Part shown: positions 39,999 through 56,798 of the stretch, in pieces
Numbering within the stretch: position 1 is the stretch's first letter
Layout: the number at the start of each line of letters is the position of its first letter
From: Pseudomonas sp. R4-35-07
Lineage (GTDB): Bacteria > Pseudomonadota > Gammaproteobacteria > Pseudomonadales > Pseudomonadaceae
Direction of reading: 5' to 3'
Length of the DNA: 64,000 nt
NCBI RefSeq assembly: GCF_003852235.1
Contig: NZ_CP027732.1
Coordinates: 2,976,001-3,040,000 of the forward strand
Translations under genes and position numbers: made by a program
Notes under the pieces: generated by a model
Seen by the model: the letters and a program-made list of their open reading frames with translations, nothing else
Databases searched by the model: none
Told to the model about the DNA's origin: nothing

Positions 39999-40009
39999 TT
40001 TTGACCCAG

Positions 40010-40390
40010 TCAGGCCTTGGCCGCCATCGCCGTTACTTCAACACGCATACCTTCTACAGCCAACGCGGCAACACCCACCGCAGCCCGTACCGGCCATGGC
40101 TTGGCGAAAAAGCGTTTGTAGACTTCGTTGAACGCGGCGCGGTCGGCCATGTCGGTCAGGTAGATGGTCAGGTGCATGACCCGGTCCATGGAACTGCCGG
40201 CGTTTTCCAGCGCGACTTTCAGCGCTTGCAGGGTGCATTCGCTTTGCAGCGTGATATCGCCCAGCTCCAGGCTGCCGTCGGCGTGGGTTGGAATCTGGGT
40301 GGAGACCAGGATGCCGTTGAAGCCGATCACGTCGGAAGAGATCGAGTCGGCATCCGGGTCAGGTGTGAAGGTCAGGTCGTGGTTGGCCAT
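40010..40390 (-). CDS. RidA/YjgF-family protein
   Basis: A 126-residue member of the RidA superfamily, which hydrolyses reactive enamine or imine intermediates. Features: DVIGFNGILVSTQIP, a central LTIYLTDMADRAAFNEVYKRFF and the end VGVAALAVEGMRVEVTAMA. GAGG lies six bases before ATG 40390; a longer frame to 40453 lacks support. RidA proteins vary in substrate; the key arginine expected in canonical RidA (RAAVGV here) is present. Confidence 0.87.
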   Translation of the reverse strand: MANHDLTFTPDPDADSISSDVIGFNGILVSTQIPTHADGSLELGDITLQSECTLQALKVALENAGSSMDRVMHLTIYLTDMADRAAFNEVYKRFFAKPWPVRAAVGVAALAVEGMRVEVTAMAAKA

Positions 40391-40431
40391 GGGTGCCTCA
40401 TGTTGGCAGGAACGAAAAGGCGCCATGGTCC

Positions 40432-40459
40432 CTGAAAAAACCACCTGGGGCAAACCAGG
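40432..40459 (-). terminator. Terminator after the decarboxylase gene
   Basis: CCTGG, a six-base loop and CCAGG, then TGG and six T's on the minus strand, directly after the stop at 40463. Confidence 0.6.
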
Positions 40460-40462
40460 GGT

Positions 40463-41332
40463 TTACTCTTTCACGTCCATGAACTCCTCAGCCCACGCCA
40501 CATAGCTCTCCGGCAATGTGTAGGTGTGGGTCAGCTCGGTCGCGCTGAGGTTCGAGGTGCTGTGGGTCAACTGCCGTTGCGCGCGCAGGCTGTCGTAAGT
40601 GGCCTTGATCGCGGCAAAGTAGGCGCCATGCCCGGCCACCACGATGCGCACGCCCAGGCTCGCCAGGCGCTCGCTGTCGTGCAGTTGGGGGTTGCCGTAG
40701 GTCACCAGCATCAGCGGTACCGTGAGGTTTTCGGCGATTTTTTCCAGGTGGTCGAAGTCTTTGACGCCGACCATGCAGATTCCGTCGGCGCCGGCCTTTT
40801 CATAGGCCTGGGTGCGCGCAATCACGTCTTCGGTGGGCAATACGCCGGCGTTGGTGCGCGCGATGATCGACAGTTCAGGATCGACACGCGCCTCCAGAGC
40901 CGCCTTGACCTTGCCGATGCCTTCTTCGACGGAGATCAAGTCCGTGGATTTACGCCCGAATTGCGCAGGCAGCAGGGTATCTTCAATGGTCAGCGCCGCG
41001 ACGCCAGCGCGTTCCAGCTCTTCAACCGTACGCATCACGTTCAGGGCATTGCCGTAGCCGTGGTCGGCGTCGGCAATGAACGGCAACTGTGCGACGCGGC
41101 CGATGCGGGTGGCCTGTTCGACGAACTCACTCAGGGTAATCAACGCGAAATCGGGTGCCGCCAGTACCTGCAGGGAGGCGACGGAGCCGCCGAGAATACC
41201 CACCTCAAAACCCAGGTCGGCCGCGATACGGGCGGACATGGGGTCGAAAACCGAGGCGGTTTCAACACAGATGGGCGTGGCAAGCAGTTCGCGGAAGTGA
41301 CGGCGCAGCGCTGAGTGAGAAATCTTGGGCAT
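40463..41332 (-). CDS. Oxaloacetate decarboxylase-type protein (PEP mutase/isocitrate lyase superfamily)
   Basis: A 289-residue protein with a PEP-mutase/isocitrate-lyase barrel: [62 protein letters not shown]. The superfamily usually splits C-C or C-P bonds in alpha-oxyacids. The closest known type in my memory is a Pseudomonas oxaloacetate decarboxylase of the same length. It is divergent from the binding-protein gene at 41623. Confidence 0.8.
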
Positions 41333-41466
41333 GTTCTTTCCTGGCTTTGGTCATCGTCAAGTGACGATCAATGTCTATTCGTGGTGGCGTGAGATTACCA
41401 CGCAGACGGGCAGGGGTTGATGACGTTTGAATGCGCAAGAGGCGTCTTGCGCGGCGATGCGCGAAT

Positions 41467-41487
41467 AAAATGCAATATGTGCATTTT
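41467..41487. promoter_or_regulatory. Inverted repeat between divergent genes
   Basis: AAAATGCA-N5-TGCATTTT, a perfect eight-base inverted repeat in an AT-rich stretch, between the decarboxylase gene and the binding-protein gene. A further AT-rich repeat AATAT-AA-ATATT follows. It resembles an operator for a dimeric regulator; the regulator is not encoded nearby. Confidence 0.4.
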
Positions 41488-41622
41488 TAGTGAATTACGT
41501 TATGCAATATAAATATTTTACATGTCTTTCTTATAACCTCATCGTAATGCCCCTTACGACTATCGCCGAGACCGCACGCGCGGATCGACTTGACGTGCCT
41601 CCCATGGCATCTGGAGACGAAC

Positions 41623-42579
41623 GTGCGTTACCTGTCAAAACTGGCGACCGGCATGGCCGCCGCATTGATCTGCTTCACCGCCCATGCGCAAACGCTGGTA
41701 GTGGGCGATCAAAGCTATAACGCCCAAGCCGCGATGGAAGCGGCGGGGGTGCTTGAGGATCTTCCCTACACCCTTGAATGGAAGCAGTTCACGGCCGGAT
41801 CGCCGGTGGCCGAAGCGCTCAACGTCGGCAGCCTGGATATCGGCCTGCTCGGCGACGCGCCGGTGTTGTTCCTGGGCGCATTGGGCGCGCCGATCAAGGT
41901 GATCGCCGTCAGCCGGCAAAACCTGGCGGGCGTGGCGATTCTGGTCAAGCAGGATTCGTCGATCCACAGCCTGGCGGACCTGGCGGGCAAACGTGCAGCC
42001 ATCTGGAAAGGCTCCTGGAGCCAGCAACTGCTGCTGAGCGCACTGGATAACGCCGGCGTTGCCCGCGACGCGCTGCAGTTGCGTTACCTCAGTGCACTGG
42101 ATGCGTCCCATGCGCTGGAAGGCGGCTCGGTCGATGTCATCGCCACCTGGGAGCCTTATGTGACCCAGCAGGAACGCCAAGGTGCACGGGTACTCGCGAC
42201 GGCCGAGGGGTTGATTCCCGCCCAGAGTTTTATCGCCGCCAATGCCACTGCGGTCGACGACAAACGCGCGCCCATCAACGACTTTCTCCAGCGCCTGAAA
42301 AAAGCCCGTGACTGGGCACGCCAGAGCCCGGCCAACACCAACGCCTACGCTGACGCATGGGCCAAACGCACCCGCGCCGACGCTGAAATCGCCCGCGCCT
42401 GGTTTGCCAGGGCACGCACCACGGTTGAACCGCTGACTGCCCAGGCACCGGTCGAAGCGCAAAAGACCGTGGACTTCTTCGCCAGCGAAGGCCTGATCAA
42501 GGCTTACCCGGCCGCCAGCCTGTTCGACCCGTCATTCGCTGCGGCCCTGCAGCCCGCCGTCGCCCAGGCACAGCCCTGA
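41623..42579 (+). CDS. Aliphatic sulfonate/nitrate-type ABC substrate-binding protein
   Basis: A 318-residue periplasmic protein of the SsuA/NMT1 family. The signal peptide ends near AHA; the body shows PYTLEWKQFTAGSPVAEALNVGSLDIG, GDAPVLFLGALGAPI and SLADLAGKRAAIWKG. GTG 41623 is chosen because GGAG ends six bases upstream and it gives a proper signal peptide; a TTG at 41590 does not. No permease or ATPase gene follows, so it must borrow another transporter or act otherwise. Monooxygenase and cupin genes follow. Confidence 0.83.
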   Translation: MRYLSKLATGMAAALICFTAHAQTLVVGDQSYNAQAAMEAAGVLEDLPYTLEWKQFTAGSPVAEALNVGSLDIGLLGDAPVLFLGALGAPIKVIAVSRQNLAGVAILVKQDSSIHSLADLAGKRAAIWKGSWSQQLLLSALDNAGVARDALQLRYLSALDASHALEGGSVDVIATWEPYVTQQERQGARVLATAEGLIPAQSFIAANATAVDDKRAPINDFLQRLKKARDWARQSPANTNAYADAWAKRTRADAEIARAWFARARTTVEPLTAQAPVEAQKTVDFFASEGLIKAYPAASLFDPSFAAALQPAVAQAQP

Positions 42580-42602
42580 ATACACCAAGGAATCTCTCTG
42601 AC

Positions 42603-43925
42603 ATGACCAAACGACAGCTCAAACTGGGCGCCTTGACCATGGGTTGCGGTGGGCCGGGTCGCCACAATTTGTGGCTCGACCCGCAATTGCCGGCCGACGC
42701 CAGCGTAAACATCGACTGGTACATCGATATCGCGCGCCAGGCCGAGGCGGCGTTGTTCGACTTGATCTTTATCGTCGACAGCCAGTTCATCACCCCGGGC
42801 TCGCCTTCCCATTACCTCAATCGCCTGGAACCGCTGACGCTGTTGTCGGCGCTGGCCGTGAGCACGCGGCATATCGGCCTGGTCGGTACGCTGACCACCT
42901 CCTACAACGCGCCGTATAACGTTGCGCGGCGCCTGGCTTCCCTGGACCTGATCAGCAAAGGCCGCGCCGGCTGGAACGTGGTGACCAGCGGCGATGCCGG
43001 TACCGCCGGCAATTACAGCCTTGATGAGCATTATGACTACACCACGCGCTACAGCCGCGCCGCCGAACACGTCCAGGTGGTGCAGGGGCTGTGGAACTCC
43101 TATGAGGACGACGCCTTCGTGCGCGACCGCGCCACCGGCCAGTTTCTCGACCCGAGCAAACTGCATAGCCTGAATCATCAGGGCGAACACTTTGCGGTGG
43201 CCGGCCCGCTGAACATCCAGCGCTCACCCCAGGGGCAGCCGGTGATCTTCCAGGCCGGGGATTCAGAGCAAGGCCGCGACCTGGGCGCCGCCACCGCCGA
43301 CGTCATCTTCACCCATGCCGCCAGCATCGAGCAGGGCCAGGCGTTTTACCGGGATATAAAGGGCAGGGCGCTGCAACGCGGACGCGATCCGGAGCAGGTA
43401 TTGATCATGCCCGGCGCGGAAATCTATGTGGGCGACACCGATGCCCACGCCCGCGAAATCGAGCAGCATTATCATCAGGTCGACCATAGTTTCGAGCTTG
43501 CGCTGAAAGAATTCGGGCGTAATTTCGGCTGGCACGACTTCAGCCAGTACGACCTGGATGCGCCATTCCCTCAAGAAAGCCTGGAGGCTGCGCGCAGCAG
43601 CTTTTTCACTGCGGCCAAACGCATCGCCGATCAGGCCCGCGAGAAGGGTTTCAGCCTGCGCCAGGCCGTCGAGTTTGGCCGCCAACTGCGTCCAGGGGCC
43701 TTCACCGGCACGGCCGACACGGTGGCGCAAAAAATGGCGGATTGGCTGCACGCCCGCGCCGTGGATGGTTTCAACATCTACATCGGGCACCCGGAGCAGT
43801 TCACTCGCTTTACCCGAGAAGTCATTCCGTTGCTGCAGGAACGCGGTGTTTACCGGACCGCGTATGAAGGGAGTACGTTACGCGAGCGCCTGGGGCTGGA
43901 AATTCCGCAGTTTGCACGGCGTTAA
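42603..43925 (+). CDS. FMN-dependent monooxygenase, NtaA/SnaA/DszA family
   Basis: A 440-residue luciferase-like enzyme using FMNH2 supplied by a separate reductase. The family blocks LFDLIFIVDSQF, RLEPLTLLSALAVSTRHIGL, SKGRAGWNVVTSG and VIFQAGDSEQGRDLGA are clear. Members oxidise nitrilotriacetate, dibenzothiophene sulfone or related sulfur compounds; next to a sulfonate-type binding protein a sulfur-scavenging role is a reasonable guess. AAGGAA lies about eight bases before ATG 42603. Confidence 0.88.
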   Translation: MTKRQLKLGALTMGCGGPGRHNLWLDPQLPADASVNIDWYIDIARQAEAALFDLIFIVDSQFITPGSPSHYLNRLEPLTLLSALAVSTRHIGLVGTLTTSYNAPYNVARRLASLDLISKGRAGWNVVTSGDAGTAGNYSLDEHYDYTTRYSRAAEHVQVVQGLWNSYEDDAFVRDRATGQFLDPSKLHSLNHQGEHFAVAGPLNIQRSPQGQPVIFQAGDSEQGRDLGAATADVIFTHAASIEQGQAFYRDIKGRALQRGRDPEQVLIMPGAEIYVGDTDAHAREIEQHYHQVDHSFELALKEFGRNFGWHDFSQYDLDAPFPQESLEAARSSFFTAAKRIADQAREKGFSLRQAVEFGRQLRPGAFTGTADTVAQKMADWLHARAVDGFNIYIGHPEQFTRFTREVIPLLQERGVYRTAYEGSTLRERLGLEIPQFARR

Positions 43926-44027
43926 GCCGTGCCTGGCGCAATTGCCGTGCGGATCTCTATAGTTCACTCACCCCCACAGCGCACTCAACGGCGCTGTGCA
44001 AACCAGCCGAAGACTGAGGTGAGCCTG

Positions 44028-44960
44028 ATGAACCGTGAATTCAGCCGCACATTGTCCGATCCCCACCAAGTGGACGCCGAGTACTTCGAGTACAGCAAGG
44101 CCGCCAACCCCATCAGTGCCAATCTCATACCGCGCATTCCCTACCACAGTTTTCCTGCCGCGCTGTATGACAGCGGCCCTTCACGCGTCGTCCCGCTGGA
44201 CCTCAGCGACGCCCTGGGCTGCGAAGGCCCGGCCACAGGTCCCGGATTGTGCGCCAACTTTATGCGACTCAACCGTGGCGACACGCTGGCCGTGCAACCC
44301 AACGCCACCTCCCAGGTGTTCTACGTGATCGCCGGGGAGGGCCGCGTGGTGCAGGCCGAGCATGAGATTCAATGGTCCAAAGGCTGCTTTATCGCGCTGC
44401 CGGGTTTGCAGGCGGCGCACTTCAGCGCCAGCGCGGATGCGCGCCTTTACTACGTGCACGATGAACCGTTGCTGCGCTACCTCGGGGTGGCACCCAGTGC
44501 AGATCGCTTCACACCGACGCTGTACCCCGCAGCGCTGGCCAACGCCAAGCTGCGCGAAGCGGCGGATGATCCGCGTGCCCAGGACCGCAGCCGCATCAGT
44601 ATCCTGCTGGGCAATCGCAACTTTCCCCAAACGCGCACCGTTACCCACGTACTGTGGGCGATGTACGGCATCCTGCCGGCCGGATCGGTGCAAAAGCCCC
44701 ACCGGCACCAGTCGATTGCCCTGGATTTCATCATTGACTGCCCGCCAGGCTGCTACTCCCTGGTCGGCACCGAGCTGGACACGGATGGGCAGATCCGCAA
44801 TCCGGTACGGGTCGACTGGTCGCCCGGCCTGGCGTTCGTGACGCCGCCTGGGTATTGGCATGCGCACTTCAATGAATCCGACACCGAGGCGTTCCTGATC
44901 CCGATCCAGGACGCGGGGCTGCAAACCTACCTGCGTGCGTTGGATATTCGCTTCAGCTGA
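44028..44960 (+). CDS. Cupin-domain protein
   Basis: A 310-residue protein with two cupin-like halves (about 80-150 and 200-300); HRHQSIALDFIIDCPPGCYSLVG and TPPGYWHAHFNES contain His residues that may bind a metal. GAGGTGA precedes ATG 44028. It follows the monooxygenase by 102 bases. It may be a dioxygenase or an isomerase acting on the same compound; the reaction is unknown. Confidence 0.65.
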   Translation: MNREFSRTLSDPHQVDAEYFEYSKAANPISANLIPRIPYHSFPAALYDSGPSRVVPLDLSDALGCEGPATGPGLCANFMRLNRGDTLAVQPNATSQVFYVIAGEGRVVQAEHEIQWSKGCFIALPGLQAAHFSASADARLYYVHDEPLLRYLGVAPSADRFTPTLYPAALANAKLREAADDPRAQDRSRISILLGNRNFPQTRTVTHVLWAMYGILPAGSVQKPHRHQSIALDFIIDCPPGCYSLVGTELDTDGQIRNPVRVDWSPGLAFVTPPGYWHAHFNESDTEAFLIPIQDAGLQTYLRALDIRFS

Positions 44961-45013
44961 GTCGTGCGTCTATGGTGATAACAACGATCACACAGACACG
45001 AGGAGGTTTACCC

Positions 45014-45244
45014 ATGAACGATTACCCAGCGGGCGACACCGATTCAGAAGCGCGCAACCGTTCGATCGGTAATGCCATAGGCCTGGCCGCCGATGAAGTC
45101 GAGTTGTGGGTGGCTTCGGTGGAAGAAGACGGCAGCGGCATGGGCTATGTGCTGACGTTTTCCACGGACACGCCCAGCGAAATCCTCGCCAAGGTCGAGG
45201 GGCTGGGCGCTGACCGCACGATTAATATCGGTCCGATTGACTGA
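45014..45244 (+). CDS. Small protein of unknown function
   Basis: A 76-residue acidic protein. It has GAGGAGG seven bases before ATG 45014, a strong ribosome site, and a predicted alpha/beta fold (DEVELWVASVEEDGSGMGYVLTFS). No signal peptide or cysteine is seen. It is 53 bases after the cupin gene. I do not recognise the family. Confidence 0.65.
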   Translation: MNDYPAGDTDSEARNRSIGNAIGLAADEVELWVASVEEDGSGMGYVLTFSTDTPSEILAKVEGLGADRTINIGPID

Positions 45245-45346
45245 GCCCTGTAAGGCCGGTAGCCATTCACGGCTGCTGGTGAAATGCGATTTGTCGAACA
45301 TGACTGTTCCTCCGTTACACTTAGCAGCGCCTGATGCCAGGTCACT

Positions 45347-45461
45347 GTAGGAGCGAGCTTGCTCGCGAAAAACGCCCAGGCAATGCGTTTATTCTGGATA
45401 AACGCGGGGGCCCTGAATTTTTCGCGAGCAAGGGCTAGCCGCCCGCCTCGCTCCTACAAAA
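45347..45461. repeat. REP pair, GTAGGAGCGAGC type, right arm interrupted
   Basis: The left arm GTAGGAGCGAGCTTGCTCGC is intact; the right arm TCGCGAGCAAG...CTCGCTCCTACA has about 14 extra bases (GGCTAGCCGCCCGC) inserted. It lies between the small protein gene and the kinase gene. Confidence 0.75.
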
Positions 45462-45504
45462 AGCCTTGACTGACCAACACGATGTCCACCATGGAGCAGG
45501 TCAA

Positions 45505-46122
45505 ATGATTCGCCCGCTGTTCATTTCGCTGGACGGGCCCAAGGGCACCGGCAAGACCACGCTGCTGGAGGCTGTTACCTCAGCATTGAGGGCAGACGGC
45601 AAAAAGGTGATCCGACTATGCGAAAAAAAGAGCGATCCCTATCGGGGTGAAACCATGATGCTGGTCAACCAGCTCGTCAGGCATCCCAGCCCGGCACTGG
45701 AGTTGGCGGTGTGTGAGCGATTTGCTGACAGCCGTGGCTGGATTTCCCGGCATGTACTGACCAAACAGCCTTCTGACAGCATCATCCTGATTGACCGCTG
45801 GTACCCGTCTGACGCGGCGTTTCGTCGACTGATGCCATTCGCGCAGATTCTAAAGTTGAACATCGAGCGAGGCGTGCAGGTGCCAGACCTGCATGTCGGG
45901 GTAGTCACTGACGCTGAAACGTCATGGGCGAGGGCGGCGGCACGAACACGTGGGCTGGGCAGTACGGTGCTGCACTCCGTGGAAGAACAGGTGGCCTGCA
46001 CGCTGGGGTTCGAGCGAGAGGTTGCCGATCACGGTTGGGTGCTATGCCGTAATGAAGGATCGATCGAGGACGCCACGGCGCAGGTGGTTGCTGAGATCTA
46101 TGGCGTGCTGAGTGAGCGCTAG
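45505..46122 (+). CDS. Thymidylate-kinase-like P-loop kinase
   Basis: A 205-residue protein with a P-loop SLDGPKGTGKTTLLEAV at 8-24, and DRWYPSDAAFRRLMP (DR(Y/W) motif) as in thymidylate or deoxynucleoside kinases. The LID motif is not obvious (ARAAARTRGLG). GGAG and AGGT precede ATG 45505. It stands alone between a REP and the dipZ promoter. It is too diverged to be the housekeeping Tmk; the substrate is unknown. Confidence 0.68.
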   Translation: MIRPLFISLDGPKGTGKTTLLEAVTSALRADGKKVIRLCEKKSDPYRGETMMLVNQLVRHPSPALELAVCERFADSRGWISRHVLTKQPSDSIILIDRWYPSDAAFRRLMPFAQILKLNIERGVQVPDLHVGVVTDAETSWARAAARTRGLGSTVLHSVEEQVACTLGFEREVADHGWVLCRNEGSIEDATAQVVAEIYGVLSER

Positions 46123-46129
46123 CAGTTCC

Positions 46130-46213
46130 GTATCGCACTGTATCTACAGGCCCTGCGGATACTTGCGGATTCAATAGACCGCTTTACCGACATATCCGCG
46201 ATACCTGCAGGCG
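46130..46213 (+). promoter_or_regulatory. Multi-part promoter motif upstream of dipZ, shared with 49676-49760
   Basis: GTATC (46130), GTATCT (46140), GATAC (46158) and GATACCTGC (46200) occur at exactly the same spacings as in the epoxide hydrolase promoter. The two direct GTATC repeats one helical turn apart fit an OmpR-family operator. Confidence 0.6.
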
Positions 46214-46267
46214 ATTCAATTGGCGCCAGCGAGGGACACCCCCTCGGCCAATTGAGCAGGTAGCGCC

Positions 46268-47479
46268 ATGTTATTGATCGCCTTTCTCGGCGGCATCGTC
46301 ACGGTACTCAGTCCGTGCATTCTTCCCGTCGTGCCGTTTTTATTCGCCCGTGCCGATCGCTCGCCAGCGTCGGTGGTGTGGACACTGCTCGGCCTGGCGC
46401 TGACCTTTGCCCTTGTGTCCAGCCTCGCCGTGGTCAGCAGTGACTGGGTGGTGACCGCCAACGGCATTGGTCGCCAGCTCGCCCTGGTGGTGCTGGTTCT
46501 GTTCGCCCTGTCGTTGCTTTCCGCCAAAGTCGGTAACGGGTTGATGCGGCCGTTGACGGCACTGGGTAATCGCCTCGATCCCGCCACGCGCAGATTGTCG
46601 GGGCCCGGCGCATCGCTGCTGATCGGGGTCGCAACCGGATTGCTCTGGGCACCGTGCGCGGGGCCCATCCTCGGAATCATCCTGACCGGCGCAATGCTTC
46701 AAGGCCCGAGCGCGCACACCAGCCTGCTGCTGTTGGCCTACGGCTTGGGCAGTGGCGTCTCGTTGGGCGTGCTGATCTTCGCGGGCCGAGGCCTGGTGTC
46801 TCGGTTGAAGTTCTCACTGCCCGTGATTGCCTGGCTGCGACGCGGCACAGGGCTGGCCGCGCTGGTGGTTGCGGGGCTGATCGCCAGTGGCTCACAGAGC
46901 CAATTACTCGCCGGCACTTCATCCCAGGGCGCTGCCAAGCTGGAGCAGTCGCTGCTGAGCGGTGTGCCCAAAGTCACTGATTACCTGGTGGACAGCGTCA
47001 AGGCCGCGACCACACCTGACCTGAGTGCCAAGGGTGAAATGCCGTCCCTGTCGGGCGCCGTCCAGTGGCTGAATTCACCCGAACTGAGCAAGGAGTCGTT
47101 GCGAGGCAGAGTGGTGTTGGTGGACTTCTGGACGTTCGACTGCATCAATTGCCAGCGCAGCATTCCGTATGTGAACGAGTGGGCAAAGAAGTACGAGAAG
47201 GAAGGGCTGGTTGTCATCGGCGTGCACACCCCGGAGTATCCCTTTGAAAGGGTGATAGACAACGTGCGCAAAAACGTAGCGAAGCTGGGCCTCAACTACC
47301 CGATCGCGATCGACAATAACTATGCGATCTGGCGCGCATTCGACAATCAATACTGGCCCGCACACTACCTCGTCGACGCCGAAGGCAAGATCCGCTACAC
47401 CCACTTCGGCGAAGGCAGCTACGACACTCAGGAAAAAGTGATCCAGCAGTTGCTGGCGGAGGCTAAGAACAAGGGGTGA
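46268..47479 (+). CDS. dipZ: DipZ-type thiol:disulfide protein (CcdA plus thioredoxin domain)
   Basis: A 403-residue inner-membrane protein. Residues 1-220 form a CcdA-like membrane domain with the two redox cysteines (LSPCILPVV near 17 and WAPCAGPILG near 126). Residues about 260-400 are a thioredoxin-fold domain with active site WTFDCINCQRS. It carries electrons from the cytoplasm to the periplasm. Classical DipZ is about 570-600 residues with an additional C-terminal domain, absent here. It is convergent with the sensor kinase gene, with only three bases between them. Confidence 0.85.
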   Translation: MLLIAFLGGIVTVLSPCILPVVPFLFARADRSPASVVWTLLGLALTFALVSSLAVVSSDWVVTANGIGRQLALVVLVLFALSLLSAKVGNGLMRPLTALGNRLDPATRRLSGPGASLLIGVATGLLWAPCAGPILGIILTGAMLQGPSAHTSLLLLAYGLGSGVSLGVLIFAGRGLVSRLKFSLPVIAWLRRGTGLAALVVAGLIASGSQSQLLAGTSSQGAAKLEQSLLSGVPKVTDYLVDSVKAATTPDLSAKGEMPSLSGAVQWLNSPELSKESLRGRVVLVDFWTFDCINCQRSIPYVNEWAKKYEKEGLVVIGVHTPEYPFERVIDNVRKNVAKLGLNYPIAIDNNYAIWRAFDNQYWPAHYLVDAEGKIRYTHFGEGSYDTQEKVIQQLLAEAKNKG

Positions 47480-47482
47480 TGA

Positions 47483-48826
47483 CTATTGGGGATGATCCAT
47501 AGGCGTCTTTGCGGAAAGTTTCAGGGTTCGCGGCAGTGTCAACTCCACACACAGACCGCCGCCCTCCCGGTTAACCAAGCGCAGGGCGCCTTGCAGGGTA
47601 AGCGCCAGTTGTTGCGAAATCGCCAAGCCCAGCCCTGTGCCACCGGTTTCCCGGTTTCGCGAATTCTCCACGCGATAAAAAGGTTTCAGCACTTCGGGCA
47701 ATTGGTGGTCAGGTATGCCGGGGCCACGGTCCAGCACTTGAATCAGCAGCCCACCGTCCGGCTGGCGCTGCGCGATGATTTGCACCTCTGACCCGAACTT
47801 CAAAGCGTTGTCCACAAGGTTCACCAACACTCTGCGAAGCGCGTGGGGGCGGGTATCGATGGCTGCGCCGCCGTCAGCTTTTAACGCCACTTGCTTGCCG
47901 GTATCGAGGTAGTCAAAGACCAGGCTTTCCAGAAAGGAATCGACATCCACGCGCTGGCTGGGCTCATTGGAACCCGCCATGCTCCGCGCGTAGGCCACGC
48001 CTTCCTGGACCAGGTGCTGCATTTCCTCCAGGTCGTTGCAGAGCTTGTCCTTTTCCATCGAATCGTCCATGAACTCCGCGCGAAGCTTCATCCGTGTGAT
48101 CGGGGTTTGCAGGTCGTGGGAAATCGCTGCCAACAGTTGCATGCGTTCCTTGACGTAATTCGCAATGCGCTCCTGCAGGGTATTGAAAGCCACGGCCGCG
48201 TAGACCACTTCGATTGGCCCTTCCTCCTTGAGCGGTTCGCCCTGGCCATTCGGATCCAGGCCGTCTACCGCTTGGGAAAGCCGCGTCAGTGGCCGTATGA
48301 CCGTGCGTACGGCGAGCCAGGTGCAGACGAACAGCAGCAACAGTTGCGCAACCAGAACTGCCGGTAACCAAGGTGATAGCGGCATCACCAAGGGTCGTAC
48401 ATCAATCGTCAGGGGGCTGCCGTCCTTGAGGCGCAAGTGGGCCTGATAATGAGGGCGCGCATCGGCAATATCGCTGAAGCTCAATGGGTAGTCCCGGCCC
48501 AGCGTGGCTTGCATGGAGCGCACGGAGACGGGAGCGCTGGTCATGTCCATTGGCGTGCCCGGCTGGCCCTCATCAAGTTCGTATCGGTAGTTGGGGTGTT
48601 CCAGGCGCGGCAACCAGGCCTCACGCTCATTGTCCGGCAACCGCTCGAGTATCGCCAGTGAGGTGGTCAGGTCTTGTTCGAAATTGTCCAGCATCAACAT
48701 CTTGGCACTTTGGTAGCGCTCATAGAACTGCAGCCCGAATGACAATCCATGGGCCACCGCCAGGCTCACCAGGAAGATCAGTGTCAACCGCGAGGCCAAC
48801 GTGCGCGGCCAACGCGTCATGGTCAT
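47483..48826 (-). CDS. Membrane sensor histidine kinase
   Basis: A 447-residue EnvZ/PhoQ-like kinase: transmembrane helix near 12-34, periplasmic loop of about 120 residues, second helix near 152-174, HAMP domain, then HisKA (ISHDLQTPITRMKL, phospho-His) and HATPase (NLVDNALKFG, DRGPGIP, GGTGLGLAIS). It overlaps the regulator gene by four bases, so the pair is co-translated. The signal sensed in the periplasm is unknown; the flanking targets suggest envelope redox or toxic organic stress. Confidence 0.9.
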   Translation of the reverse strand: MTMTRWPRTLASRLTLIFLVSLAVAHGLSFGLQFYERYQSAKMLMLDNFEQDLTTSLAILERLPDNEREAWLPRLEHPNYRYELDEGQPGTPMDMTSAPVSVRSMQATLGRDYPLSFSDIADARPHYQAHLRLKDGSPLTIDVRPLVMPLSPWLPAVLVAQLLLLFVCTWLAVRTVIRPLTRLSQAVDGLDPNGQGEPLKEEGPIEVVYAAVAFNTLQERIANYVKERMQLLAAISHDLQTPITRMKLRAEFMDDSMEKDKLCNDLEEMQHLVQEGVAYARSMAGSNEPSQRVDVDSFLESLVFDYLDTGKQVALKADGGAAIDTRPHALRRVLVNLVDNALKFGSEVQIIAQRQPDGGLLIQVLDRGPGIPDHQLPEVLKPFYRVENSRNRETGGTGLGLAISQQLALTLQGALRLVNREGGGLCVELTLPRTLKLSAKTPMDHPQ

Positions 48827-49572
48827 GGCTGTGCTCCTGACACTTGCACCGCATAGGTAAAGACATAGCCCTCGCTGCGAACAGTCTTGATGTAGGCAGG
48901 ATCGCGGGCGTCGTCCTGCAGCCGGTGGCGCAACCGGCTGACGAGCAAGTCAATCGATCGGTCGAAGAGGTCGGCGTCCCGGCCCTGGGTGAGGTTGAGC
49001 AACTGATCGCGGTTCAGCACGCGCTGGGGGTGATCGAGGAAGACGCGCAGCAAGCGATACTCCCCGCCACTTAACGTCACGATGGTGCCTTCGCTGTCCA
49101 GCAGGTGTCGAGCCGTGGTGTCCAGCCGCCATTTGCCGAATGCGAGCAGCCGGCCTGCTTCGGTGACGATCAGGTTGGGCGGCAACATGCGGGTGCGGCG
49201 GAGCACGGCGTTGATTCGCGCCAGTAACTCCCGGGCGACAAAGGGCTTGGCCAGGTAATCGTCGGCGCCCATCTCCAGGCCGATGATTCGATCCGTATCG
49301 TCATTGCGCGCGGTCAGCATCAGAATCGGCGTGGCCTTATGCTTGCCTGCGCGCAGTTCCCGACACAGCACCAGCCCATCGTCTCCGGGCATCATGATGT
49401 CCATCACAATCAAGTCGACCGGCGTGGACGCCAGAAAGGCACGCATCTGGCGACCGTCCGCCACTACCGTCGTGCGCAGCCCGTTTTTCTGAAGATAATT
49501 TCCCACCAGCTCTCTGATCTCGCGGTCATCGTCGACGATGAGGATGTGATCTACGTGCTCCACTTGACTCAC
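48823..49572 (-). CDS. OmpR-family response regulator
   Basis: A 249-residue regulator with a receiver domain (VDDDREIRELV, phospho-Asp in LIVMDIMMPGDDG, Lys in YLAKPFVARELLA) and an OmpR-type winged helix (TLSGGEYRLLRVFLDHPQRVLNRDQLL). It is divergent from the epoxide hydrolase gene across 259 bases. It is the likely binder of the shared GTATC motif. Its own promoter lies in the same region. Confidence 0.9.
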   Translation of the reverse strand: MSQVEHVDHILIVDDDREIRELVGNYLQKNGLRTTVVADGRQMRAFLASTPVDLIVMDIMMPGDDGLVLCRELRAGKHKATPILMLTARNDDTDRIIGLEMGADDYLAKPFVARELLARINAVLRRTRMLPPNLIVTEAGRLLAFGKWRLDTTARHLLDSEGTIVTLSGGEYRLLRVFLDHPQRVLNRDQLLNLTQGRDADLFDRSIDLLVSRLRHRLQDDARDPAYIKTVRSEGYVFTYAVQVSGAQP

Positions 49573-49675
49573 CTTTATCCCTGTTTAACGGCGTTGAAGA
49601 AGGTGGCGTCGAGTATATCCAGGTGACGCTTTCCAGCTGATAAAACTTTTGCACCAGACTCGCCTGGGTGGGTTT

Positions 49676-49760
49676 GTATCGTTGTGTATCTGCGCCGCAG
49701 CCAGATACACAGTGATTCGTTCAAGGCGGTTGGTGACACATACCGGATACCTGCGGGGCG
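49676..49760 (+). promoter_or_regulatory. Multi-part promoter motif upstream of the epoxide hydrolase gene
   Basis: GTATC (49676), GTATCT (49686), GATAC (49704) and GATACCTGC (49746), with GATTC and GACA at matching places in between, mirror the dipZ promoter. The perfect arms GTGTATCTG/CAGATACAC (49684-49710) make an added inverted repeat in this copy. Confidence 0.6.
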
Positions 49761-49831
49761 TTAAATGAACCCATCGAGAAGGCGCAGCCCCTCTCCAACT
49801 GATGGCTCATCTAACGCTCGGAGATCTCGTT

Positions 49832-51154
49832 ATGCCCTGGAAAAACCCCGTGAGGATGGGCGTGTTTGGTTTGGCCCTGGTCGCAGGCAGCGGCGGTGCC
49901 TGGGCCGCCGAAGCGTCAGTTGCCAGTTCGGCCACGATCCAACCCGAATCGATCCGGCCTTACCGAATTCATGTCGATGAAGCTCAACTGACCGATCTCA
50001 AACAGCGCATCGCCGCGACCCGCTGGCCAGATAAAGAGACGGTCAATGACGTCTCCCAAGGCGTGCAGCTGGCCCAGGTTCAGGCGTTGGTGAAGTATTG
50101 GGGCAACGGCTATGACTGGCGTAAGGCCGAAGCGAAGCTCAATGCGCTGCCTGAATTCATCACCACCATTGACGGCGTGGATATTCAGTTCATCCATGTC
50201 CGCTCGCGCAACCCGAATGCAATGCCGCTGCTGCTGACACACGGATGGCCGGGCTCGCAGTTCGAGTTCCTGAAGACCATCGGCCCGCTGACCGACCCTG
50301 TGGCTTACGGCGGTAAGGTCGAAGATTCGTTCGACGTGATCATCCCCTCGATCCCCGGTCACGGCTTTTCCGGCAAGCCCACTGAATTGGGCTGGGGGCC
50401 GGATCGCGTCGCGAAGGCATGGGATGTGCTCATGAAGCGTCTCGGATACTCCCGCTATGTTTCCCAGGGTGGCGATCACGGCTCGGTGATATCGGATGCA
50501 CTGGGTCGCCTGAATCCGCCGGGTCTGTTGGGCATTCACTTGAACATGCCGGCCACCATTCCGCCCGAGCTGGTCAAGCCGATCAACAGTGGTGACCCGG
50601 CACCTGTCGGGCTCAGCGAGCCTGAACGCAAGGCGTTTGAGTCCCTGAGTACCTTCTTCGGCCGCAACGCGGCATACGGCGCAATGATGGTGACCCGCCC
50701 GCAGACCATCGGCTACCTGCTGGCCGACTCGCCCACCGGTACGGCGGCGTGGATGTATGAAAAGTTCGCCGCCTGGACCGACAGTGACGGTCAGCCTGAG
50801 CGGGTACTCAGCCGTGACGAGATGCTGGACGACATCAGCCTGTATTGGCTGACGAACGTCGGCGCATCGTCATCGCGCTTCTACTGGGAAAACAACAACA
50901 ACAATTTCAGCGCCGCCGCGCAGAAAACCGCAAGTATTAAGGTGCCGGTGGCAATCACGGTCTTCCCCCACGAAATCTATCAGGCACCCAAAAGCTGGGC
51001 GCAACGCGCTTATCCCTCACTGGCCTACTACAACCAGGTTAACAAGGGCGGCCACTTCGCTTCCTGGGAACAACCGCAACTATTCAGCGAAGAATTGCGT
51101 GAGGCCTTCCGGCCACTGCGCGCCAAGCTCGGCGTAACGAAGACCGCTCAGTAA
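49832..51154 (+). CDS. Exported epoxide hydrolase (juvenile-hormone type)
   Basis: A 440-residue enzyme with a signal peptide ending near AWA. An N-terminal EHN domain (IRPYRIHVDEAQLTDLKQRI) precedes the alpha/beta hydrolase core with HGWPGS (oxyanion) and the nucleophile in QGGDHGSVIS, and a late His near KGGHFASWEQP. These hydrolyse epoxides to diols. ATG 49832 with GGAG eight bases upstream is preferred over ATG 49802. It is the first gene of a row of exported enzymes. Confidence 0.85.
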   Translation: MPWKNPVRMGVFGLALVAGSGGAWAAEASVASSATIQPESIRPYRIHVDEAQLTDLKQRIAATRWPDKETVNDVSQGVQLAQVQALVKYWGNGYDWRKAEAKLNALPEFITTIDGVDIQFIHVRSRNPNAMPLLLTHGWPGSQFEFLKTIGPLTDPVAYGGKVEDSFDVIIPSIPGHGFSGKPTELGWGPDRVAKAWDVLMKRLGYSRYVSQGGDHGSVISDALGRLNPPGLLGIHLNMPATIPPELVKPINSGDPAPVGLSEPERKAFESLSTFFGRNAAYGAMMVTRPQTIGYLLADSPTGTAAWMYEKFAAWTDSDGQPERVLSRDEMLDDISLYWLTNVGASSSRFYWENNNNNFSAAAQKTASIKVPVAITVFPHEIYQAPKSWAQRAYPSLAYYNQVNKGGHFASWEQPQLFSEELREAFRPLRAKLGVTKTAQ

Positions 51155-51216
51155 CGCCTACCCAACCCTGTCAATACACCGGGCCGTTATGCGGCGGCTC
51201 GCTACGGAGAAACATC

Positions 51217-52290
51217 ATGGAGATGACCTTGCTGAACAACCAGAATAAATCCGGCCGCCTGCGGGGTGTTGCCCCCTCGCTACTGGCAGCAGCGTTGCTG
51301 CAATTCGGCGCCGTGGCGGCAGGGTTTGCCCAGGCCAGCGCTGCTGACGTACCGGCCTCCACGGTGGCCGCTATTACGCCGGGCGCTCACACTTCGCTGG
51401 GTGACCTCAAGCATGTGAAAGCGGGTCTGCTGGACGTTTCCTACGCGGAACTCGGCCCCGCCGATGGCCCGGTGGTTATTTTGCTGCACGGCTGGCCCTA
51501 CGATATCAACGCCTTCGCTGATGTCGCGCCGGCTTTGGCGGACAAGGGCTATCGGGTGTTGATCCCGTCTGCCCGTGGGTATGGCGACACGCATTTTCTC
51601 TCGGCCAAGACCGTTCGCAATGGGCAACCCGCTGCGCTGGCCACCGACCTGATCGACTTCATGGACGCACTGAAAATCAACAAAGCCGTGCTGGGTGGAT
51701 TCGACTGGGGCGCCCGCACTGCCGATATCGTTGCCGCACTATGGCCGGAGCGCGTGAAAGCCCTGGTGGCGGTCAGCGGATACCTGATCGGCAGCCAGGA
51801 AGCGGGCAAAGCACCACTGCCACCCGCCGCCGAGTTGCAGTGGTGGTACCAGTTCTACTTCGCAACCGAGCGCGGGCGTCTAGGCTACGAGAAAAACACC
51901 CATGACTTCGCCAAGCTCATCTGGAAGCTGGCGTCGCCAAAGTGGAATTTCGACGACGCCACGTTTGACCGCAGCGCGGCATCCCTGCAAAACCCGGATC
52001 ACGTGGCCGTGTCGATGTTCAACTACCGCTGGCGCCTCGACTTGATCAAAGGCGAGCCCAAGTACGACGCGATCGAGAAGAAGCTGGCGGCATTCCCTAC
52101 CATCAGCGTGCCGACCATCACGATGGAAGGCGATGCGAACGGTGCGCCCCATCCACCGGCTGAAGCGTATGCAAAACGGTTCACCGGCAAGTATGAGTAT
52201 CGCCTTGTCAGCGGTGGAATAGGCCACAACCTGCCTCAGGAAGCGCCGCAGGCTTTCGCCCAGGCGGTGATTGACGCCGATCATCTCTGA
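51217..52290 (+). CDS. Exported alpha/beta hydrolase, epoxide hydrolase / dehalogenase type
   Basis: A 357-residue protein with a signal peptide ending near ASA. It shows LLHGWPYD, the nucleophilic Asp in GGFDWGARTAD, and the catalytic His in GGIGHNLPQEAP. This arrangement fits epoxide hydrolases or haloalkane dehalogenases. GGAG lies seven bases before ATG 51217; a second in-frame ATG lies two codons later. It is in line with its neighbours and probably shares their transcript. Confidence 0.83.
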   Translation: MEMTLLNNQNKSGRLRGVAPSLLAAALLQFGAVAAGFAQASAADVPASTVAAITPGAHTSLGDLKHVKAGLLDVSYAELGPADGPVVILLHGWPYDINAFADVAPALADKGYRVLIPSARGYGDTHFLSAKTVRNGQPAALATDLIDFMDALKINKAVLGGFDWGARTADIVAALWPERVKALVAVSGYLIGSQEAGKAPLPPAAELQWWYQFYFATERGRLGYEKNTHDFAKLIWKLASPKWNFDDATFDRSAASLQNPDHVAVSMFNYRWRLDLIKGEPKYDAIEKKLAAFPTISVPTITMEGDANGAPHPPAEAYAKRFTGKYEYRLVSGGIGHNLPQEAPQAFAQAVIDADHL

Positions 52291-52304
52291 CAGGGAGCGT
52301 CACC

Positions 52305-52805
52305 ATGAAACTCATGCATCTGTCCGGGGCTGTTGCAGCGCTTGCGCTCACCCTCGCTGGCGTCGCAGCGGGCGATTCCGCTGGCGGTGACGCTTCGCCG
52401 ATCTACGGCGTGAAGATTCCCGAAGGCTATCGCCAGTGGCCGCTGATTGCGCCAGCGCAGGAAGCCGCGCCCTTGGATGAACTGCGCGCCGTGGTCGGCA
52501 ATAACCTGGCAATCAAGGCCTACCAGGATTCAGCGCTGCCGTTTCCCGATGGCACGGTGCTGGTGAAACTGGCGTGGAAGCACGTCCAATCACCCGAGTT
52601 CGAGCCCGCCTCAATACCCGGTGCGGCCACCACGGTTCAAGTCATGGTGAAGGATTCGAAGCAGTACGCGGCGACCGGTGGGTGGGGCTTTGGGCGTTTT
52701 ATCAACGGCAAAGCGGTCGACCAGGCTCAGCACGAGACGTGTTTTGCCTGCCATCAAGCGCGCGTCAAAAACCATGATTTCGTGTTCACCCGGTACGCCC
52801 CATAA
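52305..52805 (+). CDS. Cytochrome P460-family protein
   Basis: A 166-residue periplasmic protein with a signal peptide ending near GVAAG and a single haem-c site CFACHQ near the end. The pattern IPEGYRQWPLIAP and GTVLVKLAWKH matches the P460 family, whose known members oxidise hydroxylamine or bind NO with an unusual lysine-crosslinked haem. Whether the crosslinking lysine is present cannot be told with certainty. It lies 14 bases after the preceding gene. Confidence 0.82.
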   Translation: MKLMHLSGAVAALALTLAGVAAGDSAGGDASPIYGVKIPEGYRQWPLIAPAQEAAPLDELRAVVGNNLAIKAYQDSALPFPDGTVLVKLAWKHVQSPEFEPASIPGAATTVQVMVKDSKQYAATGGWGFGRFINGKAVDQAQHETCFACHQARVKNHDFVFTRYAP

Positions 52806-52827
52806 CCCCAAGTTCAAGGAGTTCTCC

Positions 52828-53604
52828 ATGAAGAAAATCATTGCCTCGCTGGCAGTCGCTGCCTCTGTGTTGGTCGGTGCTGACGCGTTCGCGCAGACTG
52901 TGAAGCCGACGGTCGTGCTTGTTCACGGCGCCTTCGCCGACGCCTCGAGCTGGAACGGCGTGGTCAAGATCCTCGAAAAGGATGGCTACACCGTTGTCGC
53001 CGCAGCAAACCCGTTGCGCAGTGTGAAAAGTGATGCCGCATCCGTCGCCTCGCTGATCGCGAGTATCAAGTCGCCCGTTGTGCTGGTGGGGCATTCCTAC
53101 GGCGGCAACGTCATCAGCGAAGCGGCCAATGACCAGGCCAACGTCAAGGCGCTGGTCTACGTGAGTGCGTTCGCTCCCGACACCGGCGAAACCGTCGCCG
53201 GCCTGGCTGGCAAGTTTCCCGGCAGCACCTTGGGGCCAACCCTCGCAGCGCCGGTGCCATTGAGTGAGGGTGGCAAGGATCTGTACATCCAGCAGGACAA
53301 ATTCCACGCGCAATTCGCCGCTGACGTGCCCGCCGCTGAAGCGGCAGTGATGGCCGCCACCCAGCGTCCGGTCACCGAAGCCGCGCTGAATGAGCCGTTT
53401 GGGACGCCAGCGTGGAAGCACATTCCAAGCTGGGCTATCTACGGCGACAAGGACAAGAACATTCCGCCCCAGGCACTGGCCTTCATGGCCAAGCGCGCGG
53501 AGGCTAAAGCCGTGGAAGTGGTGAAGGGCGCCTCCCATGTGGTGATGGTTTCAAACCCGGCGCCCGTTGCTCGCTTGATCGAAAGAGCCGCGACGGCGAA
53601 ATGA
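52828..53604 (+). CDS. Exported alpha/beta hydrolase (esterase-like)
   Basis: A 258-residue protein with a signal peptide ending near AFA. It has VLVHGAFADASSW, the nucleophile elbow VGHSYGG and the His in GASHVVMVSNP, like salicylate esterase and EstC-type enzymes. AAGGAG precedes ATG 52828. It follows the cytochrome gene by 22 bases, and is the fourth exported protein in a row. Confidence 0.83.
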   Translation: MKKIIASLAVAASVLVGADAFAQTVKPTVVLVHGAFADASSWNGVVKILEKDGYTVVAAANPLRSVKSDAASVASLIASIKSPVVLVGHSYGGNVISEAANDQANVKALVYVSAFAPDTGETVAGLAGKFPGSTLGPTLAAPVPLSEGGKDLYIQQDKFHAQFAADVPAAEAAVMAATQRPVTEAALNEPFGTPAWKHIPSWAIYGDKDKNIPPQALAFMAKRAEAKAVEVVKGASHVVMVSNPAPVARLIERAATAK

Positions 53605-53634
53605 GCGCCCTATAAAGCCCCCAAGGTGAAGCCT

Positions 53635-55053
53635 ATGTACACCCTCAGCACGAGCTATATAGACGGCACATTTGTCCCGGTTCGGGGCACGGAGAGCTTG
53701 CTGATTATTTCTCCCACGACCGAGAACGTCCTCGGGACGGTCACGCTGGCAAACCGCGAAGATGCGGTGCTGGCCATCGAAGCAGCCGCGCGGGCCCAAC
53801 GTTTATTCGCCAGAAGTCCTAAGGCGCAGCGGATTGACATGCTCAGAGCGCTGCAAGCTGCGGTATTAAGGAACGCCGATAGCATTCGCGACTCTGCCAT
53901 TGAAGAGTACGGCGGGGTCTACTCGCGTACTCAATGGGTAAGCCAGTACGTCTCGCAGAGCTTTGCGAATGCTATCCAGACGCTTGAAGACTACCCTCTG
54001 GTGCGAACAATCGGCGCGGCGCGGGTATCAATGGAGCCGGTGGGTGTCGCAGCGCTGATTGTGCCGTGGAACAGTGTCGCCGGAACCGTCTGCAGCAAAT
54101 TGGCCTCGGCTATCGCCGCAGGTTGTACCTCTGTGATCAAGCCCAGCGAGCTCAGCCCCCTCCAGACACAGGTGATTACCGAGGCGCTTCACAGCGCGGG
54201 GTTACCGGATGGACTGTTCAATGTCTTGCTGGGCAGAGGGCACGACGTTGGAGATGAACTGAGCACCAACCCGACGGTTGCGAAAATTTCATTCACGGGC
54301 TCTACCCCAACCGGCAAGTTGATTGCGCGTGCAGGCCTCGACAGCCTGAAGCGGGTGAGCCTGTCGTTGACCGGCAAGTGCGCCTCGATTCTGCTGGAGG
54401 ATGCAGATTTGGCGAGTGCCATCCCGATGATCGTGAATGCCGCGTTCATGAACAACGGCCAGGCCTGTGTCGCTGGCTCGCGACTCCTGGTGCCGAGCCA
54501 GCGGGCAGACGAGGTCGTTGCTGCCGTGAAGGCCTGTGTTGATGGGTTGGTGGTGGGCGACCCATGGCGTCCCGATACCAGCCTGGGGCCGCTGGCCAGT
54601 GCAGCGCAGTTTGATCGAGTCCAGCATTTCATCCGCCAGGGCTTGGAACAGGGGGCCCGACTCGTCGCTGGCGGGGCAGGGCGCCCGGACGGCATCGACA
54701 GAGGCTACTTTGTCAAACCAACGGTATTTGCCGATGTGACGAGTTCAATGGCGATCGCGCAGGAAGAGATATTCGGGCCGGTGCTGTCAATCATGACCTA
54801 CGACTCCGAGGAACAGGCTGTCGAGATTGCCAATGACACCATTTACGGACTGCAGGCCTATATCTTCGGTAAAGATCTCGACCGCGCCAAGCGTATGGCC
54901 TCCCAGCTTGAGGCTGGCACCGTCTTGATCAATCGTGCCACTCCAGAATTACTTGCACCCTTTGGCGGTTTGAAGCAGTCGGGGATAGGCAGAGAGTTTG
55001 GCGTGCATGGCCTGGAAGCGTTTCTTGAGGCTAAATCGGTGGTGGTGGGTTAG
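53635..55053 (+). CDS. Aldehyde dehydrogenase-family protein, general base replaced
   Basis: A 472-residue cytoplasmic protein with the fold of NAD(P)-aldehyde dehydrogenases: VGVAALIVPWN, KPSELSPLQ, SFTGSTPTGKLI, catalytic Cys278 in NNGQACVAGSR and the end FGGLKQSGIGREFG. The usual ELGGK box reads SLTGK here, so the conserved general-base Glu is Ser244. Activity may be altered. AAGGTGA is seven bases before ATG 53635. It ends the row that begins with the epoxide hydrolase. Confidence 0.88.
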   Translation: MYTLSTSYIDGTFVPVRGTESLLIISPTTENVLGTVTLANREDAVLAIEAAARAQRLFARSPKAQRIDMLRALQAAVLRNADSIRDSAIEEYGGVYSRTQWVSQYVSQSFANAIQTLEDYPLVRTIGAARVSMEPVGVAALIVPWNSVAGTVCSKLASAIAAGCTSVIKPSELSPLQTQVITEALHSAGLPDGLFNVLLGRGHDVGDELSTNPTVAKISFTGSTPTGKLIARAGLDSLKRVSLSLTGKCASILLEDADLASAIPMIVNAAFMNNGQACVAGSRLLVPSQRADEVVAAVKACVDGLVVGDPWRPDTSLGPLASAAQFDRVQHFIRQGLEQGARLVAGGAGRPDGIDRGYFVKPTVFADVTSSMAIAQEEIFGPVLSIMTYDSEEQAVEIANDTIYGLQAYIFGKDLDRAKRMASQLEAGTVLINRATPELLAPFGGLKQSGIGREFGVHGLEAFLEAKSVVVG

Positions 55054-55251
55054 GCGTCAGCGTTATGTCTCCTAGCTAACGACAAATGGGGATGTCAGTG
55101 AAACGGTCACAGCGCTGCGAGCGAGGACAACTCGACCTTGTGGCGGGCGAACGCACCCCAATGCCGATCAGTTAAGCGAAAGTGGTTCATTGTAGGAGCG
55201 AGCCTTAACTGGCGGGCGCCAGGGCTTGCCTGCGTTGGGGCGGAGAAATAA
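55054..55251. other. Intergenic stretch with a decayed REP arm
   Basis: Between the dehydrogenase gene and the phz terminator. TGTAGGAGCGAGCC (about 55192-55205) is the left arm of a GTAGGAGCGAGC-type REP, followed by unrelated sequence with only a vague right half. No gene is seen. Confidence 0.5.
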
Positions 55252-55284
55252 CTCCAAAACCAGGCGCTGCAATCGCGCAGCGCC
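55252..55284 (-). terminator. Terminator of the phz operon
   Basis: Perfect eight-pair stem GGCGCTGC/GCAGCGCC with a six-base loop and, on the minus strand, TGG then TTTT, ten bases after the phzG stop. Confidence 0.65.
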
Positions 55285-55294
55285 CACCCATAAA

Positions 55295-55963
55295 TCAGGG
55301 CTGCAAACGCCGCACCCTCCAGCCCGTATCGCTGCGGTCATAGCGCAACCGCTCATGCAACCGTTCCTGCCCATTCCCCCAGAACTCCAGTGACTCAAGT
55401 CGCAACTCGAACACGCAATACCCCTCGGGACGCGGCAGTGGGCCTTGCGCCTCGGCCAGTTGCCTGGCGGCGTTGCGCATGGCTTGCACGTCTTCTAAAT
55501 CTTCACTCTGGTGCGATACCGATGACATCGGGTGCGTCGCATACGGGCGCTTGAGCCATGCTTCATCGGCCTTGGCATCTGGCAGGCGCACGGCCTGGCC
55601 ATTGAGGATGATCTGCTGACTGGTCTCGCGCCAATACAGCACACCCGACGCCCACGGGTTGTCGGTCAGTTCACGGCCTTTCTGGCTGCCAGCATGGGTG
55701 CTGAACAACAGCCCGGCGTCGCTGATTTCACTGATGACCACGATCCGCGTGGAGGGCCGGCCCTGGCGGTCGGCGGTGGCCAGCGCCAGGGCCTTGGGTT
55801 CGCGGATGCCCACGCGGCGGGCACGCTCCAGCCAGTTGTGCAGCACGCTCATGGGGTCGGCGGGCAGTGTCTGATATTCGGGGAAGGGCGCATCCAGTGT
55901 GCCGGTGAGGGATTCCGACATACCTTTACCCAGCAGCGGCTTGCCTTGCAGTGAAAGGTTCAT
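55295..55963 (-). CDS. phzG: Phenazine biosynthesis FMN oxidase PhzG
   Basis: A 222-residue FMN-binding protein of the pyridoxamine-phosphate-oxidase fold, which oxidises tricyclic intermediates toward phenazine-1-carboxylate. [20 protein letters not shown], [18 protein letters not shown] and [15 protein letters not shown] blocks identify it. The start ATG 55963 overlaps the phzF stop (ATGA); family length fits, while longer frames run into phzF. Confidence 0.95.
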
Positions 55964-56796: not shown

Positions 56797-56798
56797 GG

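Follow-up and report, generated by a model that had tools for sequence, protein, structure and literature searches.

Matching six-half-site promoters on either side of an OmpR-type two-component system in Pseudomonas point to a probable regulon of DipZ and an epoxide hydrolase operon

Introduction

Promoters controlled by PhoB carry a Pho box, an 11-base-pair (bp) direct repeat that takes the place of the -35 element about 10 bp 5' of the -10 element, and the recruitment of RNA polymerase at such promoters is the model for the activation we propose below. The CpxR box, GTAAA-N5-GTAAA, is built from five-base direct repeats 10 bp apart, while at ompF and ompC OmpR occupies multi-dimer arrays, with several dimers loading towards the promoter. 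Here we analyse a stretch of 64,000 nucleotides from Pseudomonas sp. R4-35-07 (contig NZ_CP027732.1, positions 2,976,001 to 3,040,000; "the window"), in which two closely similar sites, one before the thiol reductant gene dipZ and one before an epoxide hydrolase (EH) operon, lie on either side of the genes of a two-component system. We hold it to be highly probable, from comparison of sequences, that the system encoded between the two sites uses both as matching, activator-dependent promoters, with the OmpR-type regulator at 48823-49572 very probably activating both dipZ and the EH operon.

Among described systems the closest is DsbRS of Pseudomonas aeruginosa and P. fluorescens, which is copper-responsive, controls dsbDEG and, like the window system, has its regulator gene divergent from an envelope thiol-disulfide gene (PMC10141476, PMC12802237, PMC13101516). 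The window system differs in its predicted targets, DipZ and hydrolases, and in its use of GTATC pairs. Furthermore, the same genome has a separate DsbRS-like locus at about 3.985-3.991 Mb, which encodes a kinase of 440 amino acids (aa), a regulator of 240 aa and, from divergent genes, DsbD, redoxin and DsbC/G-type proteins. The comparison was made with the regulator of this locus, which is 35% identical to that of the window, and the intergenic region of the locus holds a GGTTAATC-N3-GGTTAATC repeat and a single GTATC. In this genome the motif described below is absent from the dsbDEG-like genes and stands before dipZ and the EH operon. With its own DsbRS-like locus, low regulator identity, other repeats and other targets, the genome leads us to reject the identification of the window system with DsbRS; the two therefore differ.

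Compared with the remaining systems, the window promoters share with the Pho box the 11-bp repeat and its apparent placement, and differ in sequence and in having an extra inverted pair of tandem sites at a fixed distance upstream. They share with the CpxR box the five-base repeats 10 bp apart, and differ in the GTATC core, in its use as an inverted pair and in the regulator. The resemblance to ompF and ompC would lie in several dimers set towards the promoter, OmpR being also the best NCBIfam match of the regulator (and EnvZ that of the kinase, both below the model cut-offs); here, however, the two upstream dimer sites are in opposed orientation, and the predicted regulon consists of thiol and hydrolase genes, not porins.

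Results

The pattern GTATC-N5-GTATCT-N12-GATAC-N37-GATACCTGC matches without mismatch at 46130-46208 and at 49676-49754, both on the plus strand and 3,546 bp apart, has no third copy in the window at up to three mismatches and does not occur in 100 dinucleotide shuffles of the window. The original prediction, made from the sequence alone, had described a motif shared with equal spacing to the base by two sites about 3.5 kb apart with a two-component system between them, and all of this is borne out. It had also noted that GATTC and GACA coincide at the two sites; these prove to be the fourth half-site and the start of the fifth. What has to be revised is the count of four parts, since comparison with relatives gives six half-sites in the layout (GTATC-N5-GTATC)-N13-(GATAC-N5-GATTC)-N16/17-(GACAC-N6-GATAC)-N10-TTnAAT, the last element being -10-like. 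Pairs one and two are set in opposite orientations and together make up an imperfect palindrome of 43 bp, of which the gene-proximal pair is the degenerate one; the third pair is an 11-bp repeat at the place expected for a -35 element, 10 bp 5' of the -10-like hexamer. The gap before the third pair is 16 bp in both window versions, and the part common to them reaches beyond the motif first reported, to TTCAAT or TTAAAT at an equal distance. The tandem half-sites are spaced 10-11 bp, so the earlier suggestion that direct repeats ten bases apart fit an OmpR-family dimer stands. The elements of the two promoters are as follows.

46130..46144, plus strand: dipZ promoter, distal tandem pair GTATC-N5-GTATC, conserved in 33 non-redundant promoters
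46158..46172, plus strand: dipZ promoter, inverted tandem pair GATAC-N5-GATTC, second half-site least conserved
46189..46204, plus strand: dipZ promoter, -35-region pair GACAT-N6-GATAC (11-bp repeat)
46215..46220, plus strand: dipZ promoter, putative -10-like TTCAAT, 10 bp past the last half-site
49676..49690, plus strand: EH promoter, distal tandem pair GTATC-N5-GTATC, positioned 5' of the divergent regulator gene as well
49704..49718, plus strand: EH promoter, inverted tandem pair GATAC-N5-GATTC
49735..49750, plus strand: EH promoter, -35-region pair GACAC-N6-GATAC
49761..49766, plus strand: EH promoter, putative -10-like TTAAAT

The genome is complete, a single contig of 5.84 Mb. In it, the opening 33 bp of the pattern match at up to three mismatches nine times forward and six times in reverse, against two and five for a control pattern read backwards. 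Lowering the limit to two mismatches leaves nothing but the pair of window sites, each also read in reverse, and the number of three-mismatch matches is about equal to that of the control. The third-pair box together with the -10-like element, again at up to two mismatches, is found in just the two window places, both times exactly. Three further exact copies of GTATC-N5-GTATC in the genome were dropped as targets: each is inside a long open frame or at its margin, and the longer patterns miss them.

To what extent is this geometry kept in relatives? We collected distinct palindromes (up to four mismatches) from window positions 40001-58000 and from loci L001-L118, leaving out copies whose 43-bp core was identical, as well as sites too close to a locus end, which gave 104 with enough flank; because L089-L118 had been fetched by the motif itself, counts from these loci test only what lies beyond the palindrome. 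The third pair (9-10 of 10 bases) is present in 62 of the 104, at a gap of 16 in 38 and of 17 in 24, and at no other gap among the 10-25 searched; nor did any repeat spacing from 5 to 17 other than 11 give a match at gaps 16 and 17. The 42 palindromes that lack the third pair at this threshold comprise the second palindrome by the regulator gene, Massilia-type sites and several that reach 7-8 of 10 bases at the same gap. Half-site conservation is strong in the 33 non-redundant promoters (less than 75% identity), a set with members from Pseudomonas, Rhizobium and relatives, Burkholderia/Paraburkholderia and a Gallionellaceae contig. Scored as a full promoter over 30 positions, the window sites have one and two mismatches, and 6.0 Mb of Markov sequence contain no match at up to nine.

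The regulator follows the motif closely. In 199 Pseudomonas genomes, our own included, the motif (43 bp, up to three mismatches) occurs in 83, while the backwards control matches in one genome, and the regulator (E <= 1e-80) occurs in 107; both are found in 81 genomes, the motif only in two (G132, G183), the regulator only in 26 and neither in 90 (Fisher p about 1e-29, a statistic that ignores shared ancestry). When the 30 best regulator copies are taken as the starting point, 24 have the palindrome (up to four mismatches) just upstream. Among the 80 best loci of at least 590 candidates, the share with such a palindrome in the flanks examined is 18/24 at a regulator identity of at least 80%, 10/18 at 70-79%, 5/7 at 62-69% and 8/12 at 58-61%, and drops to 1/19 at 50-57%, so that the site fades below 58%; 40 control patterns of shuffled letters score below 1% in the same loci. 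In addition, some full promoters lie on a different contig from the regulator copies found, or at 0.4-1 Mb from them (a different contig of a draft genome being no proof of distance): G010, G124, G173 and G186 have one ahead of EH, G125 and G044 ahead of abh1, and G047 ahead of abh2. These remote promoters speak in favour of control in trans. Comparison thus strongly supports the proposal that the 48823 regulator controls both operons, through the co-occurrence in 199 genomes, the palindromes beside regulator copies, the promoters before dipZ described below and the remote targets.

The genes in question are these.

46268..47479, plus strand: dipZ, 403 aa, a DsbD/CcdA-like membrane part (matches below the Pfam cut-off) and a redoxin domain
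47483..48826, minus strand: EnvZ-like sensor histidine kinase, 447 aa, its start overlapping the regulator end by 4 bp
48823..49572, minus strand: OmpR-like response regulator, 249 aa, receiver and Trans_reg_C (winged-helix) domains, proposed binder of the sites
49802..51154, plus strand: EH, EHN and alpha/beta hydrolase, first gene of the operon
51217..52290, plus strand: abh1, alpha/beta hydrolase with an export-type N-terminus (by eye), also targeted elsewhere
52305..52805, plus strand: cytochrome P460 family protein
52828..53604, plus strand: abh2, alpha/beta hydrolase with an export-type N-terminus (by eye); our scans used start 52825, one codon upstream
53626..55053, plus strand: aldehyde dehydrogenase, possibly the last gene of the EH operon (21-bp gap)

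The real start of EH is probably the ATG at 49832, and a hydrophobic N-terminus ending in AWA, read by eye, suggests that the protein is exported.

Of 62 full promoters, 60 point in the right direction at a gene of our labelled set, chosen from genes met in these same loci, within 1.6 kb. The labelled gene that comes first is DUF2790 in 23, abh1 in 15, dipZ in eight, EH in four, an MbnB-like gene in three, a redoxin in three, c15 (an 84-aa open reading frame without a Pfam match) in two, and abh2 and a response regulator (RR) in one each. Starting from the genes instead, a full promoter (up to 8/30 mismatches) lies within 1.5 kb upstream of 26 of the 30 best dipZ copies and of 6/30 EH copies; with a limit of 600 bp the counts are 5/30 and 6/30, and we widened the limit because DUF2790 genes stand between promoter and dipZ. 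The six EH copies, with the promoter directly upstream, are six of the 14 that are at least 86% identical to ours. The expectation that relatives keeping these genes would also keep the motif fails in part for the EH operon, which five of the 14 have without a convincing site. We read these operons as cases of loss, or of recruitment of EH by lineage. Operons of the form EH-abh1-P460-abh2 without the motif were seen at L219, L220, L222 and L225.

Clusters that bear the regulator also hold OsmC/Ohr proteins, a GFA-family protein, MbnB/TglH-like and DUF2063 proteins and DoxX, and Massilia-type loci with the regulator hold a DsbD and an HlyD/CusB-type membrane-fusion protein; among cluster genes, the full promoter was seen solely for the nine kinds of first gene counted above. 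Alignment of 32 kinases shows that the part which by eye looks periplasmic lacks conserved Cys residues and has a single conserved His (QxH) and a single conserved Met. We take the signal to be, presumably, envelope redox or electrophile stress.

Discussion

How might such a promoter work? In the mechanism that we propose, the phosphorylated OmpR-type regulator would bind as dimers, with GTATC-N5-GTATC taking one pair and the inverted GATAC-N5-GATTC another, and these upstream dimers would help to load a third pair on GACAC-N6-GATAC. Since this third pair would sit in the -35 position, 10 bp 5' of the -10-like hexamer, RNA polymerase would be recruited as at Pho-box promoters, and the regulator would thus activate rather than repress. 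By sequence, the geometry is that of an activator pair that would replace the -35 element at a fixed distance from a putative -10, which is weak in rhizobial promoters. The output would be a protective, largely exported set, with the thiol reductant DipZ on one side and epoxide-hydrolase-type enzymes, cytochrome P460 and an aldehyde dehydrogenase on the other. We regard this as a predicted new regulon and operator layout inside a well-known kind of regulation. A literature search, which most subscription papers lay beyond, yielded no description that we recognised of this system or motif.

More broadly, the locus may represent an envelope-stress system, so far undescribed and spread horizontally among soil Alpha-, Beta- and Gammaproteobacteria, which through a strict three-dimer promoter (inverted tandem pair plus -35 pair) would couple periplasmic thiol reduction (DipZ, redoxin) to exported epoxide-hydrolase-type detoxification, Ohr and MbnB-like functions in response to envelope electrophiles or oxidants; this wider proposal is tentative, and we would put it at somewhat below an even chance. 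Regulators about 80% identical to that of the window are present on rhizobial plasmids (L020-L033 and further plasmid matches), which suggests horizontal spread of the system. The two promoters give a regulator family that is apparently uncharacterised yet common (it is found in more than half of the Pseudomonas genomes above and on many rhizobial plasmids) a predicted binding site and a regulon readable from sequence. That regulon ties envelope thiol redox to export-looking hydrolases, making signal and substrates directly testable, and the promoter offers a clean natural case for possible cooperation of OmpR-type dimers in opposite orientations.

Several observations weigh against activation of both operons by the regulator. 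The third-pair consensus and the gene labels were derived from the same loci in which they were later counted, and kinship of the genomes inflates the co-occurrence statistic. The strict motif is missing in 26 of the 107 genomes with the regulator, and within the 1.5 kb examined a site is lacking at six of the 30 best regulator copies. The -10-like hexamer is moderately conserved in the 33-promoter set and weak in its rhizobial members. For the box plus -10 pattern, the backwards control gives three matches in the genome against two real ones, so that it is the exactness and position of these matches that are informative and not their number. Lastly, three of the 14 close EH relatives (G067, G121, G175) have only a weaker site, with 5-6/30 mismatches, about 2.5 kb upstream in the same cluster, and the five without a convincing site (G159, G167, G016, G002, G156) retain EH-abh1-P460-abh2; G016 has an 8-mismatch candidate 2.6 kb upstream of the EH operon, and in G167 just 2.6 kb upstream of the operon is readable before the contig ends.

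This uneven conservation bears on an alternative that is compatible with regulator-dependent promoters, namely that the dipZ-type promoter alone is ancestral and the EH promoter a lineage-specific recruitment that says little about EH biology. The contrast between dipZ (26/30) and EH (6/30, or 6/14 close relatives) and the EH operons without a convincing site agree with it, while exported-type hydrolases are recurrent targets (abh1, EH or abh2 as first labelled gene, at the counts given above), in Rhizobium, Burkholderia/Paraburkholderia and Pseudomonas loci; we see it as a real possibility, although we lean the other way. Far less credible is a recent duplication of a single promoter as the origin of both sites, their identity then being historical and not functional. 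Identical spacing would be expected of such an event, but the two promoters agree at 34 of 36 half-site and -10 positions against 19 of the 55 others (91 bp compared), their upstream 60-bp flanks agree at 20/60, and nearly the same spacing is retained in distant genomes. Their likeness is therefore not that of a recent copied block, and with so little identity outside the half-sites we reject the duplication.

Another DNA-binding protein, of TetR, MarR or LysR type or an OmpR-family paralogue, might instead bind the palindrome, the two-component system being a mere neighbour. A palindromic core is typical of many non-OmpR repressors, LysR genes lie close to some Burkholderia/Paraburkholderia sites, and a search of the genome with the regulator gives 26 matches at E <= 1e-20 (one being the regulator itself, and three covering the receiver part only). 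Against this, 81 of the 83 motif genomes also carry the regulator, tandem 10-11-bp repeats suit an OmpR-type dimer, neighbours other than the regulator and the targets differ between clades, and the three closest paralogues in the genome are just 48-54% identical to the regulator. We consider a different binder improbable, and return to the regulator at 48823 as the likely activator.

Paired palindromes 68 bp apart are common in Pseudomonas loci where dipZ is divergent from the regulator (L009, L011, L016, L090-L118; for example L099:1433 and 1501). Among neighbouring palindromes less than 250 bp apart in L009-L063 and L089-L118, 18 pairs are at 68 bp, two at 67 and one each at 58, 81, 91, 114, 118, 120 and 159; in the window, a second palindrome beside the first is absent. 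The regulator-side palindrome GATACACTGCAATAC is followed in several species (L009-L019, L048) by a TAGACT-like -10 at a similar distance, judged by eye, which suggests autoregulation.

Full promoters also precede pairs of MbnB/TglH-like and DUF2063 genes (3/62; L009:8182-10161, L010:8410-10108, L018:9019-11149), a possible link to metal-handling genes or to those of ribosomally synthesized and post-translationally modified peptides (RiPPs). As to the surroundings of the window promoters, a thymidylate-kinase-like gene (45466-46122) ends 7 bp ahead of the palindrome of the dipZ promoter, and the word CCATCGAG occurs soon after the -10 in many Pseudomonas promoters, with its window copy at 49771-49778.

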